From Proteiniphilum propionicum (GTDB taxonomy: Bacteria; Bacteroidota; Bacteroidia; Bacteroidales; Dysgonomonadaceae): DNA of 64,000 bases. The notes under the pieces are model-generated. The model did no database searches. It saw nothing but the letters and a program-made list of their open reading frames with translations, and was not told the DNA's origin. The stretch covers positions 2,719,501 to 2,783,500 of the forward strand of contig NZ_CP073586.1 in assembly GCF_022267555.1 (NCBI RefSeq), given 5' to 3'. The position numbers were made by a program, and so were the translations under genes. Positions 43,582-61,654 of the stretch are shown here, piece after piece; position 1 is the first letter of the stretch; each line of letters begins with the position of its first letter.

Positions 43582-44775
43582 ATGGCAAAGATAGAGGGTT
43601 AAAGTACTGATAATCCAAAGTTGCTGTGTAAAGAATTAAAAAACGGAACGCTTAGTTTATATCTCGAATATTATTTGGGATACTCTAAAATTTACGATGA
43701 AAAAACTGGAAAAGAAACTATTAAAAAGGATAGAAAAAAAGAGTCTTTGAGTTTATATTTATTCAAGAATCCAAAAACACCGATTGAACGACAATCTAAT
43801 AAAGAGACACTTGAATTGGCAAAAAATATTAGATTTTAAAGGGAGCAGCAATTTAAAGATTCAAAAACGGGTTATCGAATCTATACGACAAACAATGTGA
43901 ATGTTTTTGATTGTATGGATGCTTATTATAATAGTTATACAAAGAAAGATGTGAGAATGGTGAAAGAAGCCATTCAACGCTTTAGAGATTTTATTGAACG
44001 TGAATATCCACTCTATAAAACCAGAATTTTGCCCGAACAGCTTAATAAAGAAATGATGCTTAAATTTGTAGACTATCTTCAAGAAAAGGGCAAAGGGAGT
44101 GGGGCTGTAACGTATTATAAGAGATTTAAAAAGCTCATTAAATATTTGGTTGAGAATAACTATATCCAGAAAAATCCTTGTGACGGTGTAATATGTAAGA
44201 CAGATGAAGAAACTTTAAAGAAAGACATTTTAAGTGTTGATGAGATGGGAAAGTTGATCAATACTACTTATCCTAAGCAAAATCAAGAAGTTAGAAGAGC
44301 ATTTATTTTTTGTTTATACACAGGTATAAGATATTGCGATGTTAAAGATTTACGTTTTTCTAATGTGGACTTTTCCAATAAGCTTTTATCATTTAATAAA
44401 AAAAAGACACGTCACTTTAGTTCTAAAAGTTGTGTAAATATCCCTCTGAATGATGGACTCCTAAAACTCATAGGGGAGCCAATAGAGAATGAAGAGGGTG
44501 ATGTTATAGATGGTGTTATCTTTAATTTACCAAGTCAAAACATGTGCCTAAAGTCCTTAAAGCATTGGGTGAAATTAGCAGGTATTCAAAAACATATTAC
44601 TTGGCATTGCGCCCGACATTCTTTTGCTGTAAATATTCTAAACAATGGAGCCATTATTAAAACTGTTGCGAGCCTACTGGGACATAGTGGTTTGCAACAC
44701 ACAGAAAAATATACCCGTGCAGTGGATGAGCTAAAACAAAAAGCAATAGATAGTTTGCCGGAACTGAAATTATAA
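43582..44775 (+). pseudogene. Tyrosine recombinase/integrase interrupted by two in-frame TAA codons
   Basis: One continuous frame of 398 codons from the ATG at 43582 reads as a Bacteroidota tyrosine integrase: an N-terminal arm-binding segment, a core-binding SAM-like domain and a catalytic domain with GIRYCD (Arg), HCARHSF (His-Arg), LGHSG (His) and the nucleophile in EKYTR. Codon 7 (43600-43602) and codon 86 (43837-43839) are both TAA. Each differs by one base from a sensible codon (TTA Leu in GLS, AAA Lys in FKREQQF). The rest of the frame has no damage. Starting at GTG 43897 would give a 292-residue protein without the arm-binding part. Probably an inactivated gene, but the clean frame hints at recent change or sequencing error. 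Confidence 0.85.
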
Positions 44776-46068: not shown

Positions 46069-47220
46069 ATGAAACTCCTTCCGAAAAACCTTATAGAGGA
46101 CTGCTTAGAGTCTTATATTTACAAGCATACCACAAAGTCACAAATCATTTATATCACCGTGCTGGTAGCATTGCTTGCTTGCTTCGTTGCGTTACCGCTT
46201 ATTTATGTGGATGTTACGGTGCAAAATCCTGGTATGATTCGTCCAGTAAACGAACGTACTGAAATAAAAGCCTCTGTTACTGAGTGGGTGGACAGCGTGT
46301 ATGTAAAAGAGGGTGCTCGTTTGTCACAGGGCGATACCATCATTCGCCTACGTACAGATAATCTACAAGCGCGCCAACTAGTGTTGCAGCAAAAGCTAAA
46401 CGACGCTAATCGACAAATTTCGGATTTAGAGCAGCTTACACGAGGCAGAATGCCCGAACAATTTTCTTCGGGCGTGCGTATGCAACAAAATGCCTATTAC
46501 ACTAAACGTAAAAAAGAACTGCAAACCTTGTTGGAAAAAGCCCGAAACGAACACGAACGAAACAAAAAATTATTCGACAAGGAAGTTATTTCGCCTGACG
46601 AGTACGAGCAATACTTTTTTGCTCTGCGTAATGCTGAAAATGAATATGCTTCGCTTATAGATAATCAGTTGAGTGTATGGCAAACCGATAAAAACACACT
46701 TGCCATAAACCACGCCGAATTACAGAGTGCACTTAATCAACTGGAAAAGGAGCAAGAAATGCACTATGTTACCAGTCCCGTAAGTGGTACATTGGAGCAG
46801 TTTACAGGCATTTACAAGGGTAACAGTATTTCAGCAGGACAAACATTGGGTGTGATAAGTCCCGACTCTACGCTCTATGCCGAAGTATATGTATCTCCGC
46901 GTAACATAGGTTACCTTTATGAAGGAATGCCTGTGAACGTGCAAGTAGAATCGTTTAATTACAACGAATGGGGAACTATTAGTGGTAAAGTGAGAGAAAT
47001 TTCATCGGACTTTTATTTCGATTCAGGCTCACAAAAGAGCTACTATAAGGTAAAATGCGAATTAAGTCGCGATTTTCTAACGCTAAAAAACGGTAGAGAG
47101 GGGCATTTGAAAAAAGGAATGACTGTGCATGCTCATTTCGTACTTACACGCCGAAGCCTCTTTGATTTACTGTATCAAAAGATAGATCACTGGATAAATC
47201 CGACACAATATAACGCTTAA
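46069..47220 (+). CDS. HlyD-family secretion adaptor of the peptide exporter
   Basis: The 383-residue protein has one N-terminal membrane helix (about 24-46, IIYITVLVALLACFVALPLIY), a lipoyl half-motif with VKEGARLSQGDTIIRL, a coiled coil of about 130 residues and the HlyD return YVTSPVSGTLEQFTGIYKGNSISAGQTLG (in outline). This is the type that bridges inner-membrane peptide ABC transporters and TolC. It lies 58 bases before the transporter gene. No lipobox, unlike the host efflux adaptors. Confidence 0.92.
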   Translation: MKLLPKNLIEDCLESYIYKHTTKSQIIYITVLVALLACFVALPLIYVDVTVQNPGMIRPVNERTEIKASVTEWVDSVYVKEGARLSQGDTIIRLRTDNLQARQLVLQQKLNDANRQISDLEQLTRGRMPEQFSSGVRMQQNAYYTKRKKELQTLLEKARNEHERNKKLFDKEVISPDEYEQYFFALRNAENEYASLIDNQLSVWQTDKNTLAINHAELQSALNQLEKEQEMHYVTSPVSGTLEQFTGIYKGNSISAGQTLGVISPDSTLYAEVYVSPRNIGYLYEGMPVNVQVESFNYNEWGTISGKVREISSDFYFDSGSQKSYYKVKCELSRDFLTLKNGREGHLKKGMTVHAHFVLTRRSLFDLLYQKIDHWINPTQYNA

Positions 47221-47278: not shown

Positions 47279-49447
47279 ATGAAGAAAGGAATAAAAGTAA
47301 AACAACACGATATTACCGATTGCGGACCGGCTTGTCTTGCATCTATTTGCGCTTACCACGGTTTGCGTTATCCTATTGCCAAAATTCGGCAATATGCCTA
47401 CACCGATCAAAAAGGAACAAATTTGCTCGGACTTATTGAGGTAAGCAAACGTTTGGGGTTGGAAGCACGTGGTGTAAGAGGCGATTACGATACTTTAATT
47501 CAACACGGCGTTTTTCCTGCTATCGCGCATATTGTGGTAAAAAAAGCTTTGCATCATTTTGTGGTAATTTACAAAGCTACACCAACGCATATTCACGTAA
47601 TGGATCCGAAAGATGGAAAGATGCACAAACTTACTCGCGAAGCTTTTGAAGAAGAGTGGACAGGCATCCTGTTGTTGATGAAAAAAGAGGAATCATTTCG
47701 AGGCGGAAAACAAACAAAAAGTGTGATGCGCCGTTTTGTGGAATTGTTGTTGCCACACAAATCGTTGATGCTACAAGCCTTGTTCGGTGCAGCGATTTTT
47801 AGCATTTTAGGCCTTTCTACATCGGTTTATGTGGGAAAAATAACCGATTACGTGCTTATTGATAAAAACTATAATTTACTGCACTTAATGGGCTTTATAA
47901 TGATTGCCATTATCATATTGCGTACATTTATAGGGTCTATGAAAAGTGTTTTGACTTTACGAACAGGACAACACATTGACGCGGTTTTGATATTGGGATA
48001 TTATAAACACTTACTTACACTTCCGCAACAATTCTTTGATACTATGCGAGTGGGTGAGATTATTTCACGTGTGGGAGATGCGGTAAAAATACGCAATTTT
48101 ATCAATAACGTTTCCATTGACCTTGCGGTAAATGTGATGATACTTTTCTTTTCGCTTTGCGTGATGTTTATATATTCGTGGCAGTTAGCTTTGATAACGC
48201 TTGCATCCGCACCGCTTTTTTTAATTATTTACGTGGGTTTCAATCGGCTTAATCGAAAATACCAGCGACGTATCATGGAATCCAATGCCGAGTTGGAAAG
48301 TCAGTTGGTTGAATCAATAAACTCTATAAACACTATAAAGCGCTTTGGTGTGGAAGATTTTGCCAACGTGAAAACCGAAATTCGCTTTGTAAGGCTTTTA
48401 CGGAACACGTTCCGAAGCATATATGGAGCTATTTTGGCACAAGGTGGAATTCAATTCGTATCGTCGGCAATTACGGTAGCGGTGCTTTGGGCAGGCAGTA
48501 CGCTGGTTATTAAACAACAAATCACGCCGGGAACGTTAATGGTGTTTTATTCGCTGGTAGGATATGTTATTTCACCTATTGGTTCGCTCATCACTGCCAA
48601 TCAGACCGTACAAGACGCCCTTATTGCTGCTGATCGTTTGTTCCAAATAATGGATTTAGATCGTGAAGAGCAAGATACCGGACGCAAGCACGAGATTAGT
48701 CGTTCTTATATGGGTGATATTACTTTGCAAAATGTTTCGTTCCGTTATGGAACTCGTAAGCAGGTCTTTACCGATTTGTCGCTAACCATTCCCAAAGGGC
48801 AAATAACAGCCATCGTGGGCGAAAGCGGCTCAGGTAAAACCACTCTTGTTTCGTTGTTACAAAATATTTATCCTATTCAAGGCGGGAGCATTAAGATTGG
48901 AAAATTTGATATTAAACAAATAACTAACGACAGCCTTCGTGCATTGGTCAGTACTGTTCCGCAACAAATAGAGCTTTTTGCAGGAAGTATTATCGAAAAC
49001 ATTGCATTGGGAGACTTTCAACCGGATGTAAAACGAATATTGGAAATTGCGGAGCAGTTGGGTTTGAATGATTTTATAAGCAAATTGCCTAACGGATTTT
49101 CCACTTATATCGGCGAACAGGGAGCTTCGTTGTCGGGAGGAGAAAAACAACGCATTGCAATTGCCCGTGCTTTGTATAAAAATCCTGAAGTGTTGATTTT
49201 TGATGAAGCAACATCATCGATCGATTCCGTATCGGAAAAATATGTGCGTGAAACGCTTAATAGTTTAGCAGCCGAAGGAAAAACCATAATTATTATAGCG
49301 CACCGATTAAGCACTGTCCGCCATGCCGACAACATAGTGGTTTTAAAAGAAGGAAATTTAGTGGAATCGGGCAAGCATGATGAGTTGTTACTACAAAAAG
49401 GCGTGTATGCTCATTTGTGGAACGAACAGTTTAATATTATCGGGTAA
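47279..49447 (+). CDS. Peptidase-containing ABC transporter (C39 bacteriocin-type exporter)
   Basis: The 722-residue protein has an N-terminal C39 cysteine peptidase with oxyanion Gln9, catalytic Cys15 (DCGPAC), His93 (HHFVV) and Asp109 (MDP). Six membrane helices follow at about 160-440, then an ATPase with Walker A GESGSGKTT, signature LSGGEKQR and Walker B VLIFDEATSSID. Proteins of this class cut double-glycine leaders from precursor peptides and export the core. Two candidate substrates with GG motifs are encoded downstream. All catalytic residues are present, so it should be active. Confidence 0.95.
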   Translation: MKKGIKVKQHDITDCGPACLASICAYHGLRYPIAKIRQYAYTDQKGTNLLGLIEVSKRLGLEARGVRGDYDTLIQHGVFPAIAHIVVKKALHHFVVIYKATPTHIHVMDPKDGKMHKLTREAFEEEWTGILLLMKKEESFRGGKQTKSVMRRFVELLLPHKSLMLQALFGAAIFSILGLSTSVYVGKITDYVLIDKNYNLLHLMGFIMIAIIILRTFIGSMKSVLTLRTGQHIDAVLILGYYKHLLTLPQQFFDTMRVGEIISRVGDAVKIRNFINNVSIDLAVNVMILFFSLCVMFIYSWQLALITLASAPLFLIIYVGFNRLNRKYQRRIMESNAELESQLVESINSINTIKRFGVEDFANVKTEIRFVRLLRNTFRSIYGAILAQGGIQFVSSAITVAVLWAGSTLVIKQQITPGTLMVFYSLVGYVISPIGSLITANQTVQDALIAADRLFQIMDLDREEQDTGRKHEISRSYMGDITLQNVSFRYGTRKQVFTDLSLTIPKGQITAIVGESGSGKTTLVSLLQNIYPIQGGSIKIGKFDIKQITNDSLRALVSTVPQQIELFAGSIIENIALGDFQPDVKRILEIAEQLGLNDFISKLPNGFSTYIGEQGASLSGGEKQRIAIARALYKNPEVLIFDEATSSIDSVSEKYVRETLNSLAAEGKTIIIIAHRLSTVRHADNIVVLKEGNLVESGKHDELLLQKGVYAHLWNEQFNIIG

Positions 49448-49474: not shown

Positions 49475-50779
49475 ATGAAACAATTATTTATTCTCATCTT
49501 TATCGCGGGCATATATGTTTCTACACTTACGGCACAACAAGCTTGGACTTTAGAAGAGTGTATAACCTATGGCTTGGAGAACAATCTATCCATACAACAA
49601 ACACAATGCGAAGCCGACATGCAATACATTCGCGAACGAATGTTGAAAAACAGTCGTTTGCCAAGTTCCGAAATCGTGGCATCGCAACGCTTTAATTTTG
49701 GTCGTTCACTCAATCGAGAAAACATCTATCAGGATGTAAGTTCGCACATTACGAATTTTAATCTGAATGTGGTAAAGCCGTTATTCGATGGTTTTTCCAC
49801 TCGTTATTCTATTCGAGAAAATCGTTCAGGCATGCAGGCTATTGAAGAGAATATCATCGCTAAGAGAGATGAACTTAGGCTCAATATTGCAAATTTGTTT
49901 TATCGGGCATCAATATATAAAGAGGTACACATCATTGCTGTTGAACAAAAAAAGCTTACCGAAGCTCAAATTGACCGTGTGCGATTTCGTATGGAGGCAG
50001 GTATGGCATCTAAAGACTTGCTGTTGCAAATGGAAGCTCAACTTGCCGATGATGAACTGAAAATAACCGAAACACGAGGGAACGTGGACATTGCTCTAAT
50101 CGAACTTGCTCGGCTGATGAATATTACTGAGCATATTCATCAGTTCGATATAGTGGTGGATACCACTCGAATGGAGTTATCGGATTGTTTAAACAAAGGT
50201 GATTTACAAATCAATCATTTTCCGCAAATCCGTTCGGCACAACATCGTTTGCAAAGTGCGCAGTGGGCACTCAAGAAAGCTAAAGCCGGATATTTTCCGT
50301 CACTTTCATTAGGTGGAAGCATCGGGAGCAGTAATTACATACAATCGGAGATTTTGAACAGTCCGCTTTTTGAACAACTAAAAAACAATCGCCAAGCTTA
50401 TGTTTATGTAGCTTTGCGCATCCCTTTATTCGATAAGTTTGTCACGCGTGATAATTTGCGAGGAATTAAGATTGATATCCGGAACCAATCTCTTGTTTTG
50501 CAGGAAACCGAAAACAATTTGCGTGCCGAAGCTTTAAAAATGGAAAGCGAGATATTAAATGCTCGTCAAAAACTTTGGGCAGCCAATCAATCAGTAAGCT
50601 CTTATACCGAAGCATTTCGATTTGTCACCGAAAAGTTTGATGCCGGAAAACTTTCGGTCTATGAGCACTTGCAAGTGAAACAACGGTTGGCAAACAGTCA
50701 ATCGCAAGCAGTGCAGGCAAAATATGATTTGGCGTATAAAATAATGTTACACGAGTATTATTATAGTAACAAAAAATAA
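49475..50779 (+). CDS. TolC-family outer-membrane protein of the peptide exporter
   Basis: The 434-residue protein has a signal peptide ending TLTAQQ and the OEP pattern (AWTLEECITYGLENNLSIQQ at the start, later FDAGKLSVYEHLQVKQRLANSQSQ). It completes a three-part export channel with the adaptor and the C39 transporter. It is 27 bases after the transporter gene. Confidence 0.92.
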   Translation: MKQLFILIFIAGIYVSTLTAQQAWTLEECITYGLENNLSIQQTQCEADMQYIRERMLKNSRLPSSEIVASQRFNFGRSLNRENIYQDVSSHITNFNLNVVKPLFDGFSTRYSIRENRSGMQAIEENIIAKRDELRLNIANLFYRASIYKEVHIIAVEQKKLTEAQIDRVRFRMEAGMASKDLLLQMEAQLADDELKITETRGNVDIALIELARLMNITEHIHQFDIVVDTTRMELSDCLNKGDLQINHFPQIRSAQHRLQSAQWALKKAKAGYFPSLSLGGSIGSSNYIQSEILNSPLFEQLKNNRQAYVYVALRIPLFDKFVTRDNLRGIKIDIRNQSLVLQETENNLRAEALKMESEILNARQKLWAANQSVSSYTEAFRFVTEKFDAGKLSVYEHLQVKQRLANSQSQAVQAKYDLAYKIMLHEYYYSNKK

Positions 50780-50873: not shown

Positions 50874-51206
50874 ATGACACTTTTTCAACAAATTGACAGG
50901 ATGAAATATATTCATCATCTTATTTATAACCGAGCAACCGGAAATCCTGCACGTTTTGCTGGCAGATTACAGTTAAGTAAAAGACAGCTTTTTAATATTC
51001 TGGAAGAGATGCGAATAATGGGTTTAGATATTCGTTACGATAAAAAGAGCGAGACCTATTTCTATAACGGAAATATATATTTAGATATTTCTTATTCATT
51101 TAAAAAGTTGTCTAACAGTGAGGTGAAAAACATTAATGGAGGAGGAAGATTTTACCAAAGTGCAATTTTATTTCACCCTGCTCCGTTAATTTTGCATTGT
51201 AGTTAA
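50874..51206 (+). CDS. HTH protein with a C-terminal double-glycine motif
   Basis: The 110-residue protein has an N-terminal winged-helix-like domain (about 4-65, with FAGRLQLSKRQLFNILEEMRIMG as the recognition region). After a short linker it carries KLSNSEVKNINGGG at 78-91 and ends with a 19-residue tail rich in hydrophobic residues with a single Cys. The GG segment closely matches the leader of the small precursor encoded 80 bases downstream. Known double-glycine leaders are N-terminal, so a GG signal at the end of a DNA-binding domain is unusual. It may be a regulator that is also a peptide precursor, or a fusion. HTH assignment is by pattern; the DNA target is unknown. Confidence 0.7.
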   Translation: MTLFQQIDRMKYIHHLIYNRATGNPARFAGRLQLSKRQLFNILEEMRIMGLDIRYDKKSETYFYNGNIYLDISYSFKKLSNSEVKNINGGGRFYQSAILFHPAPLILHCS

Positions 51207-51285
51207 TACATCACAAGTACGCATAGTGATGAATTAATTGCGGCAAGTTTTTTTTAGTATTAACAATTTTAATTATTTTTGTAAA

Positions 51286-51477
51286 ATGAAAAATTTAGAA
51301 TTTCAAGAACTCTCAATGGTAGAGTTGGAAGAGGTGAATGGTGGAGGAATTGATTTTTTGTATGAGTTGTTTACAGGTAGAAGTCTGGCTGGAGACTTAA
51401 GAAAATTAGGCAAATGGTACTTAGAGGAAACTGGCGAGTATTGGGGTGGAAATGCACCATCAAGTCCGCTCAGATAG
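51286..51477 (+). CDS. Double-glycine leader precursor peptide (putative bacteriocin or signal peptide)
   Basis: The 63-residue protein starts with a 20-residue leader of the double-glycine type (FQELSMVELEEVNGG), with hydrophobic residues at the usual spacing before the GG. Cleavage would release a 43-residue core that begins GIDFLYELF, is rich in Gly, Leu and aromatic residues, contains no Cys and ends SSPLR. ATG at 51286 is chosen since the upstream extension has no leader character. The C39 transporter 1.8 kb upstream is the obvious processing enzyme. Antimicrobial activity is inferred, not shown. Confidence 0.82.
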   Translation: MKNLEFQELSMVELEEVNGGGIDFLYELFTGRSLAGDLRKLGKWYLEETGEYWGGNAPSSPLR

Positions 51478-51572: not shown

Positions 51573-52076
51573 ATGAAAGTCTTAAAAAAAATTGCAAAAA
51601 CAAATATCCCTTTGTTTTCTCTTTTTTTATCAATAATTTATTTTATAATAAAATTATTGTTTAACATTATCAAAGAGTTATTCAAAATTCCGGATACCTC
51701 TTTTAGAGAAAAATTGATAGATGAAAACTTCTCTGTTACTATCAATTTATTATTAGATACCTTAATTATTGCTCCAATAGTAGAAACGTTGATTTTTCAA
51801 GCTCTTTTCTATAAAATATATCAAAAAGCCAAGATTAACAAGTGGATAATAATGGCAATTTCTTCAATTGCTTTTGGTCTTTTTCATTATTACTCTCTCT
51901 TTTATATACTAAGCACGACTGTAGCAGGATTTATTTTTGTTTACATGTACTTCTTAAGAGCCGAAATAAACAATAAACCGCTATTATCTACCATTTGTGC
52001 TCATTTCACTATAAACCTAATAGTAATAATTAATGTAATGATAGCACATTATCATAAGTTTGGCAATTGGTTTTGA
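51573..52076 (+). CDS. CPBP-family membrane protein (CAAX protease-like), putative immunity protein
   Basis: The 167-residue protein has about four membrane helices and the three CPBP motifs in modified form: IVETLIFQAL (one Glu71 and Gln76 where EExxxR is usual), FGLFHY (His105) and CAHFTIN (His144, Asn148). Members of this family next to bacteriocin genes often give self-immunity, which is a fitting role here. The missing second glutamate and arginine leave catalytic activity uncertain. Confidence 0.75.
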   Translation: MKVLKKIAKTNIPLFSLFLSIIYFIIKLLFNIIKELFKIPDTSFREKLIDENFSVTINLLLDTLIIAPIVETLIFQALFYKIYQKAKINKWIIMAISSIAFGLFHYYSLFYILSTTVAGFIFVYMYFLRAEINNKPLLSTICAHFTINLIVIINVMIAHYHKFGNWF

Positions 52077-59848: not shown

Positions 59849-61654
59849 CTATTTTGTTAAAATACCGATCTGGTTCATATCTGTTGCCGGTTTTCCTCCA
59901 TCGGCACCACTGAGTGCTTCGAGTTGAAAGTAACGGGCATTGATTGTCTCGCTGAATATTATGCGTTGCGGGATGGGGTTGTTTTTGATGTTGCTGAACT
60001 CTCCCTTTTTGGCATCAACCCAGGTATTACCATCGCCGCTCACCTTGAAAATATATGTGAAAACCGGTTCCCTGTTATCAACGGGTCTATATGTAAACCC
60101 TTTTATCTTGTAAAGCTCACCAAGGTCAACAGTAAGAGGGTTGTCACTGGTGATTTTCCACGACTCGGCGGAAATATCTGATAACTGCATCTCTTTGGCT
60201 GCTTCTTCCAGTAGCGGTGCATAATAGGCACCCACTTTTGCAATGTTTGCAATGTCGCGTGTTTCTGAGATTGTGACCCTTAGTACTGTAGGTGCTACAT
60301 CATTGAATTTGAGCAATCGTTTGTAACCGATGGTAGTACCTTCGGCCAGTTTCACCCATTCATTGTTTATTAGCCCTTCTAATATAAACTCTTCCACACG
60401 CTGGCCCTTGCGGATATCTTCCTGAAGCATAACAGTGTTGATTGTTTCTCCCGGCTGAATTGAAAATTCTTTTGAGGCACCTGAACGGGCTTTCCAGGCT
60501 GCTTCTCCATCGTTAAGCTTTTCATTTCTGAAGGTGTTTCTGATATATGAGCCAAACAGATTCAGGCGTTCGGCATCAACCTCATGTATTCTGCCTCGTT
60601 TATCTGGTGGTATGTTAAGTAACAATACCGAGTTCATGCCTACAGAATTAAAATAGATGTTCACTAGCTGCTGCAATGTTTTTACCTGATTATCCTGTTC
60701 AGGATGATAGAACCAGCCCGGGCGAATTGATACGTCAACTTCCGACGGGTACCAGTATAGCGTCTGTGCTTCAGAAATAAGCTGACGGATGCCTAACTCT
60801 TTTGAAGTGGGGGAGATATTCAGGCGTTTGTTTTCATTTGTGATGGCTTCGTTGATATTAGGCTGCAATGGCGTTACGCTCCACTCAGTTTCTCTACCAA
60901 GTCCTTTTTCATTACCTACCCACCTTACATCGTCACCCATTATTGCTTTAACCGCCTTTGGCTGTAGGCTGTCGATAACATGATAGAAACGTCCCCAGTC
61001 GTACTCCTGTACTTTGCCGTTGGGGCCTTCGCCATTGGCTCCATCGAACCACACTTCGTGAATTTCCCCATAGTTTGTAAGCAGTTCAGTAAGCTGTTGG
61101 GCAAACATTGCATTATATTTTGGCGAGTCGCCATAGCTCGCCGCATTCCTGTCCCAAGGTGAAAGGTACACTCCAAACTTCATATTGTATTTGTCGCATG
61201 CCTCTTTCACCTCTTTTACCAAGTCGCCATAACCATTGTGCCATGGCGACGATGCCACTGAATGAGACGTAGTTGCGGTAGGCCATAGACAAAAACCATC
61301 GTGATGTTTTGCTGTAAGGATAAGCAATTTAAAGCCAGCGTTCTGCAGTGTGGTAACCCACTGCTCTGCATCTAAATCGGCCGGGTTGAAAAGAGCAGGA
61401 TCTTCTGATCCGTCGCCCCATTCCCTGCCGGTGAATGTATTCATCCCAAAATGGATAAAAGCTGTCAACTCAAGCTCCTGCCACTCGTATTGTCGCTGTG
61501 TTGGAACTACGTAGGCGGATAACTTCACTTTCTGATCTGATGTAAGCAAGTTTCTGAACGTGAGCTTTTTTTCGAAATAGGTGTTAGCCCTCTGATTGCA
61601 TCCGGATGAAGATACTACAGTTATTAACAGGCAGATGAATAAAATTTTTCTCAT
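59849..61654 (-). CDS. Alpha-L-fucosidase (GH29) lipoprotein with C-terminal discoidin-like domain
   Basis: The 601-residue protein has a lipobox (VVSSSGC), then the GH29 barrel with HFGMNTFTGREWGDG, LTAKHHDGFCLW and the nucleophile in EVWFDGANGEG (Asp204). A beta domain follows, and the last 130 residues form an F5/8 type C (discoidin-like) carbohydrate-binding domain (VDLGELYKIKGFTYRP then ARYFQLEAL). It would cut terminal L-fucose from glycans at the cell surface. No SusC/SusD pair is nearby, so it is not in a full polysaccharide utilisation locus within this window. Confidence 0.93.
   Translation of the reverse strand: MRKILFICLLITVVSSSGCNQRANTYFEKKLTFRNLLTSDQKVKLSAYVVPTQRQYEWQELELTAFIHFGMNTFTGREWGDGSEDPALFNPADLDAEQWVTTLQNAGFKLLILTAKHHDGFCLWPTATTSHSVASSPWHNGYGDLVKEVKEACDKYNMKFGVYLSPWDRNAASYGDSPKYNAMFAQQLTELLTNYGEIHEVWFDGANGEGPNGKVQEYDWGRFYHVIDSLQPKAVKAIMGDDVRWVGNEKGLGRETEWSVTPLQPNINEAITNENKRLNISPTSKELGIRQLISEAQTLYWYPSEVDVSIRPGWFYHPEQDNQVKTLQQLVNIYFNSVGMNSVLLLNIPPDKRGRIHEVDAERLNLFGSYIRNTFRNEKLNDGEAAWKARSGASKEFSIQPGETINTVMLQEDIRKGQRVEEFILEGLINNEWVKLAEGTTIGYKRLLKFNDVAPTVLRVTISETRDIANIAKVGAYYAPLLEEAAKEMQLSDISAESWKITSDNPLTVDLGELYKIKGFTYRPVDNREPVFTYIFKVSGDGNTWVDAKKGEFSNIKNNPIPQRIIFSETINARYFQLEALSGADGGKPATDMNQIGILTK

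Follow-up and report, generated by a model that had tools for sequence, protein, structure and literature searches.

Double-glycine-tagged winged-helix proteins beside C39 exporters in Bacteroidota: candidate regulators that may sense free export capacity

How peptide synthesis is matched to the capacity of a C39 exporter is, to our knowledge, an open question, and a locus of Proteiniphilum propionicum raises it in an unusual form: why should a small protein built like a DNA-binding regulator end in a segment resembling the leader of an exported peptide? The protein is encoded within a window of 64,000 nucleotides (NCBI RefSeq assembly GCF_022267555.1, contig NZ_CP073586.1, positions 2,719,501 to 2,783,500 of the forward strand), which is the whole stretch of DNA analysed here and to which the coordinates of its features refer.

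A helix-turn-helix protein within a peptide-export operon

The genes concerned lie on the + strand in the order HlyD-type membrane fusion protein (46069-47220; PF13437, E 6e-17), C39-peptidase ABC exporter or PCAT (47279-49447; PF03412, E 5e-36, with TIGR01193 above its cut-off), TolC-type outer membrane protein (49475-50779; PF02321, E 4e-42), the protein of interest (50874-51206, an open reading frame with relatives elsewhere), a canonical double-glycine peptide precursor (51286-51477, an open reading frame matched by family models only below cut-off) and a CPBP (Rce1-like) membrane protease (51573-52076; PF02517, E 1e-12), which we take to be a possible immunity or processing protein. At E ≤ 1e-8 the exporter is the genome's sole C39 match. 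A tyrosine integrase is encoded upstream of the export operon (43897-44775), and an apparently unrelated alpha-L-fucosidase-like protein with an F5/8 type C domain occupies 59849-61654.

The 110-residue protein, hereafter HTH-GG, is predicted by AlphaFold2 to begin with a winged helix-turn-helix (HTH) domain (residues 1-74; 50874-51095) of three helices (residues 3-18, 25-31 and 36-48) and a beta-hairpin (strands 53-56 and 61-64), an assignment that also draws on HTH_11 matches in relatives and on the pN/pS values given below. Mean pLDDT is 79.7 over the model and 83-95 for blocks of residues 1-70; a short helix is predicted at 81-84, and residues 99-110, with pLDDT below 50, form a disordered end. 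No Pfam model matches the window protein at E ≤ 1 and none in Pfam or NCBIfam covers it as a whole, while HTH_11 (PF08279) is matched at E ≤ 0.01, a count by E-value only, in 38 of the 49 family members that were aligned. Foldseek searches with the model returned DNA-binding proteins as best matches, NiaR first and BirA in the first ten, at weak significance (best E 0.034, none at E ≤ 0.001). A profile search against solved structures gave seven matches at E ≤ 0.1; antibody chains account for four, the best E is 0.014, and NiaR stands at 0.067.

The protein ends ...SFKKLSNSEVKNINGGGRFYQSAILFHPAPLILHCS, that is, in KLSNSEVKNINGGG followed by 19 residues. Its recognition segment, delimited from the profile of 71 relatives, spans residues 75-90 (51096-51143), with KLSNSEVKNINGG at 78-90 and the predicted short helix inside it. 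With the first two glycines taken as -2 and -1, the segment has L-12, S-11, E-8, V-7, I-4 and GG, and the tail after the pair comprises 20 residues (51144-51203); an earlier reading of the letters alone, which gave 19, started at the third glycine. That sequence-only reading had remarked that the segment nearly matches the leader of the adjoining peptide, and the likeness is real: the precursor, which starts with the ATG at 51286 and reads ELSMVELEEVNGGG (leader MKNLEFQELSMVELEEVNGG), shows the same positions. As set out in the accessible text on the C39 peptidase LahT, this enzyme reads -4, -7 and -12, its recognition motif falls within the last 13 leader residues, and variants with a charged -7 were left unprocessed (PMC6363468). 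The window protein and the 71-member profile alike have the hydrophobic -4, -7 and -12 and the GG of a C39-processed precursor, but not its N-terminal leader, the HTH-GG segment being C-terminal. Curated models score the window segment below cut-off (TIGR01847, 13.1 against 15.7 bits; TIGR03949, 13.3 against 21.5), and the window protein has no NHLP or Nif11 leader match in Pfam or NCBIfam at E ≤ 1.

Conservation of the segment and its linkage to C39 exporters

A search with the single sequence found relatives in 44 of 393 genomes of the order (E ≤ 0.001). A profile matched 77 of the 393 at E ≤ 1e-4 and, at E ≤ 1e-6, 73 of 395 genomes drawn from the phylum; many phylum-level matches and some order-level ones are long regulators (~300-400 aa) that share the HTH only. 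Scanning named genomes for the pattern yielded 78 loci, including Aquimarina, Muricauda/Flagellimonas, Maribellus, Labilibacter and Marinifilum; 60 further regions were taken from the order profile matches and 29 from the phylum ones. The 169 loci pooled (L258, which repeated L090, was left out) yielded 176 intact unique members after exclusion of HTH matches ending below position 60, tails longer than 75 aa, duplicates identical in core and tail, and two truncated members. GG anywhere in the tail defines the GG class, with 71 members against 105 without; the strict pattern holds as well for 44 of the 71, and three (L106, L114 and L094) are doubtful. One member of each class lacks a usable flank, leaving 70 and 104 for counts on flanking DNA (68 and 103 in one earlier count). 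Closer to the window, seven of 60 relatives of its genome matched, 36 of the 60 belonging to the same genus. Four of the seven are same-genus loci, which lie outside the 176; three (G797, G798 and G815) keep the GG and G814 lacks it. The export cassette may be mobile, since 32 of the 36 same-genus genomes searched, some of them incomplete, gave no match to the HTH-GG protein.

Phage records gave no match. Plasmid records gave six, four of them from Bacteroides; in the one of these four that was examined, the match is an HTH protein within a set of conjugation genes. On the Aureibacter tunicatorum plasmid pAT7 (L197; NZ_AP025312.1, 15.4 kb) an HTH-GG protein forms part of a small system for peptide export.

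Aligned on GG, the 71 members are hydrophobic at -12 in 89%, at -7 in 55% and at -4 in 85%; E stands at -8 in 40, and in 38 the segment keeps a distance of exactly 14 residues to the HTH domain's end. Because it recurs in 71 of 176 intact relatives, and at that exact distance in 38 of the 71, the segment is more than a chance occurrence. The sequence-only reading had conceded that a frameshift or sequence error might have fused a separate leader gene to the HTH gene; an artefact of this kind is excluded by the same recurrence, and in pAT7 the protein, with the segment EMSATDMYHINGG, is a single annotated CDS (WP_309943463.1). Over 46 overlapping, non-independent pairs, pooled pN/pS is 0.17 for the HTH, 0.31 for the leader-like part (16 residues to GG) and 0.57 for the tail, with pooled pS of 0.69, 0.63 and 0.47, respectively. 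As judged from these sequences, the GG segment is under protein-level constraint and is a trait of the family.

The same reading had proposed looking for the C-terminal GG near C39 transporters in homologues, and the two do occur together. A C39 gene lies within 100 bp of 25 of the 71 GG members against four of the 105 others, and within 3 kb of 42 against 17 (Fisher p = 5e-9); in the 42 it is upstream in 35 and downstream in seven, always on the same strand. Homologues without the GG, which that reading had counted against itself, make up 105 of the 176, but 78 of these have no C39 gene in the examined DNA, compared with 22 of the 71 GG members (some near contig ends). Counted by identity cluster, with one row per cluster and ties dropped, a C39 gene within 3 kb accompanies 24/46 GG and 12/51 non-GG clusters at 70% (p = 0.006; p = 0.016 at 60% and 0.026 at 50%), and within 500 bp the association has p = 0.002 at 70% and 0.011 at 60%; significance is lost at 50% and 45% for the 500-bp distance and at 45% for the 3-kb one. 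A tree test with only six well-supported independent pairs went in the expected direction without reaching significance (C39 within 3 kb changed together with GG in 2.8 pairs and against it in 0.1 on average), and precursor presence was directionless. The four loci holding both kinds are divided, the GG copy being nearer to C39 in L175 and L183 and the GG-less copy in L153 and L185. In the latter two, extra divergent GG-less HTH relatives lie directly beside C39 (L185 7250-7573; L153 9392-9739) and are possible regulator pairs.

Precursors follow the same pattern. A canonical GG precursor is found within 1.5 kb downstream of 51/71 GG and 20/105 non-GG members, against 86 of 991 randomly drawn six-frame ORFs of at least 100 aa, and among members with such a downstream precursor C39 lies within 500 bp in 24/51 GG and 2/20 non-GG (p = 0.005). 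The most frequent gene order is exporter, HTH-GG, precursors; that of pAT7 starts with the HTH gene and continues with TolC, HlyD, exporter and GG peptide. Across 43 loci the HTH-GG segments share 115 identities with the precursor leaders of their own loci, compared with 98.8 after shuffling (p = 0.008). E occupies -7 of the segment in L130, L147, L160 and L185, unlike the adjoining precursors; L240, with the same tail type, has Q.

Operator-like DNA beneath the tail

In the window, the DNA that encodes the tail overlaps a putative operator, the imperfect palindrome GTGCAAT-TTT-ATTTCAC (51160-51176), and, 10 nt past it, TAATTTTG (51187-51194, + strand), which by its sequence fits the Bacteroidota -7 consensus TAnnTTTG as it appears in the accessible parts of two sources (PMC7366714; PMC2483708). 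Positions 51160-51194 are identical at 30 of 35 sites in G797 and likewise in G798, for which the HTH coding DNA gives 156/219 and 158/219; in G815 the values are only 22/35 and 131/219. G815 has a perfect palindrome, GTGCAAT-AAA-ATTGCAC, slightly farther from the start codon, and in G798 a 1-nt insertion shifts the frame of the tail while the DNA stays conserved. It is this same-genus conservation that supports the window's own palindrome, which is imperfect and falls outside the 25 matches of the family test.

In that test, whose thresholds (box at least 5/6) were chosen after seeing examples, the best palindrome had a -7-like box 4-11 nt downstream of it in 25/70 GG members, 13/104 non-GG members and 8/200 control gene ends (GG against control, p = 1.5e-10), the control windows being placed by stop codon and the family windows by domain end. 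Such a site is present in 17 of 42 GG clusters at 60%, although some of the 25 matches (L235, L251) have a high AT content and could have arisen by chance. In 3-nt bins the offset of the box peaks at 6-8 nt for GG members (18 of 54 palindromes), whereas the bins of the 95 control palindromes hold from 0 to 9 and are highest at 18-20 nt. Palindrome strength alone is barely above control, with p ≤ 0.05 in 15/70 GG, 17/104 non-GG and 21/200 control sequences. A strict palindrome with box, compared with shuffles, reached p ≤ 0.05 in 9/51 GG members with a precursor and 1/19 without, and in 3/20 and 2/85 of the corresponding non-GG members; an earlier strict count was 9/68 GG (0.96 expected) and 5/103 non-GG (1.0 expected). 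The clearest signal was given by the looser criterion, the one compared with control gene ends. Repeats after the stop codon did not separate GG from non-GG members (window z -0.1), and a weak dyad, CATCAC-N11-GTGATG near 51209-51231, was dropped.

The palindrome starts inside the coding sequence in 19 of the 25 GG matches and lies wholly inside it in 14. Of 16 disjoint pairs, 13 have a smaller pS in the tail than in the HTH (p = 0.02), and a conserved-looking tail in some groups, FRPxLLDGTxISLL, is encoded by the palindrome itself. At L245 (9564-9968; G635) the HTH-GG reading frame stops directly after GG, with the palindrome and a -7-like box kept downstream, and on sequence grounds this is a natural tail-less version of the protein. 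Since the palindrome lies in or across the end of the regulator reading frame in most detected GG sites, the residues after GG appear to be largely translated operator; in many loci the tail resembles a translation of the operator or promoter that serves the following gene, which in most cases encodes a double-glycine precursor.

Among 61 loci chosen for having a palindrome and box, similarity of the recognition helix predicts similarity of the site beyond that of the rest of the domain; the correlation is small (partial r 0.159, p = 0.0005) and persists for pairs under 45% identity (partial r 0.151, p = 0.0035). Helices of the form LSRSQ[LF], for instance, occur with arms of the CCGTCC type, and those of the form [IV]SEA[ST] with [C]ACT[CG]TCA; two types of arm and recognition helix can be named, TTCCGTCC and CACTCTCA. 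Fold, selection and this correlation together suggest that the HTH protein binds the palindrome DNA.

A capture model, its rivals and its relatives

The explanation that we prefer, and to which we give an even chance, is that HTH-GG is a winged-HTH regulator, probably a repressor, equipped with a leader mimic through which peptide synthesis would follow free export capacity. The small protein would regulate the peptide genes beside the exporter by binding the palindrome where the downstream precursor gene has its promoter; as this site is placed immediately 5' of the -7 box, the likeliest effect seems to be repression, with RNA polymerase blocked. Its C-terminal double-glycine segment would dock, as a leader mimic, in the C39 domain of the adjoining exporter. 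An exporter not filled with precursor would capture the regulator, opening the precursor genes, and where -7 is hydrophobic it may also cut off the tail, with which the V-7 of the window protein would be compatible. As precursor accumulated and filled the C39 domains, the regulator would be left free and the precursor genes would shut. The idea in the sequence-only reading that transporter activity changes the transcription factor hence survives as the leading interpretation. Generalised to a family of leader-tagged transcription factors across Bacteroidota, with the C39 exporter sensing free capacity by capturing and sometimes cutting the regulator, and with translated operator as the cut-off residues, the proposal stands slightly below an even chance.

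How far cutting belongs to such a system depends on -7. A charged residue stands there in 11 of the 43 HTH-GG segments compared and in none of the 43 neighbouring precursors, and the position is hydrophobic in the precursor only at 14 loci and in the HTH-GG segment only at two (p = 0.004). Given that LahT left charged -7 variants unprocessed, some members may be limited to docking, or may not bind. A sensor that binds C39 and is never cut, a sub-form of the preferred explanation, would accommodate this asymmetry as well as the frame of L245 that ends at GG; with V-7 and the full canonical pattern in the window protein, we regard it as unlikely. The opposite emphasis, in which the HTH is an enlarged leader (compare NHLP and Nif11) and the tail, of median 19 residues, an exported pheromone or bacteriocin, strikes us as equally improbable. 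Such a precursor would have its full recognition segment, its C39 linkage and tails that are alike in some groups, FRPxLLDGTxISLL among them. That tail is the one encoded by the palindrome, however, and no constrained core was found after GG, given the tail pN/pS of 0.57 with reduced pS, the palindromes, the shifted frame over conserved DNA in G798 and the missing tail of L245, and the HTH is under stronger constraint, at 0.17, than a leader should require. The idea of the tail as an exported product, raised in the sequence-only reading, or as a signalling one fares no better against the operator- and promoter-like DNA, the G798 frameshift and the L245 stop.

That a regulator gene in the past became joined to, or ran on into, DNA coding for a leader, and that the GG segment is now a functionless relic, would suit the 105 of 176 relatives without GG and the few spurious-looking calls noted above; position-specific conservation in the 71 members, a leader pN/pS of 0.31 and C39 linkage that holds at several clustering levels make this distinctly improbable. 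We think it very improbable that the winged helix has leader peptides, and not DNA, as its ligand and carries precursor to the exporter. The same fold occurs in RRE domains, which, in the accessible portion of one source, may descend from DNA-binding regulators (PMC7470986), and the HTH-GG gene does adjoin precursors, but its relatives match HTH_11, a palindrome lies at a promoter-like box and helix and site are correlated.

The capture model has partial parallels among known systems. LahT-type double-glycine leaders, including the long Nif11 and NHLP ones, share the -4/-7/-12/GG pattern and a gene beside a C39-ABC exporter, whereas here the part before GG is a strongly constrained HTH and what follows is often operator-like DNA, not a core peptide. 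HTH_11 (PF08279) regulators, with NiaR/BirA-type proteins as the nearest folds, share the winged-HTH fold and a palindromic site at a promoter-like box, whereas HTH-GG lacks an effector domain and carries its leader mimic directly after the wing. FlgM and sigma28 exemplify export-coupled regulation, and as there, export machinery would remove a regulator and open its genes; the parts are unrelated, however, and the fate of HTH-GG would be capture or cleavage at the C39 peptidase and not secretion as an intact protein. In the accessible text on HetC of Nostoc, a PCAT with a regulatory role whose substrate is unknown, the authors propose that, once the substrate is cut, its N-terminal portion remains and interacts with a regulator of transcription, and suspect roles of PCATs beyond toxin export (PMC10986499); in contrast, the candidate substrate here is itself a DNA-binding-type protein. 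Bacteroidetocin and other Bacteroidales RiPP loci likewise combine a GG precursor with a PCAT in Bacteroidota, and an HTH gene is noted in one such cluster (BGC3), but the accessible parts of these sources describe no GG-bearing HTH protein (PMC6671954; PMC10352776).

Keyword searches of mostly non-subscription literature, in so far as the texts were accessible, retrieved no description of an HTH protein with a C-terminal GG segment. The parts are known; an HTH regulator with an exporter tag is a new combination and, if docking were shown, would amount to a new kind of system. HTH-GG is a recurrent candidate, with few parts, for a PCAT substrate that acts on transcription, and beside C39 it is a marker for peptide clusters in Bacteroidota. 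It also carries a caution: a short conserved peptide that closes a protein can be a DNA site in translation.

One further locus, on the contig of a Marinifilum sp. record (L120; L062 1-15388), contains two HTH-GG genes and GG precursors with Cys in the core, together with four similar ORFs of ~400 aa that end in WDEC[FL]LLS and look LanC-like by eye.
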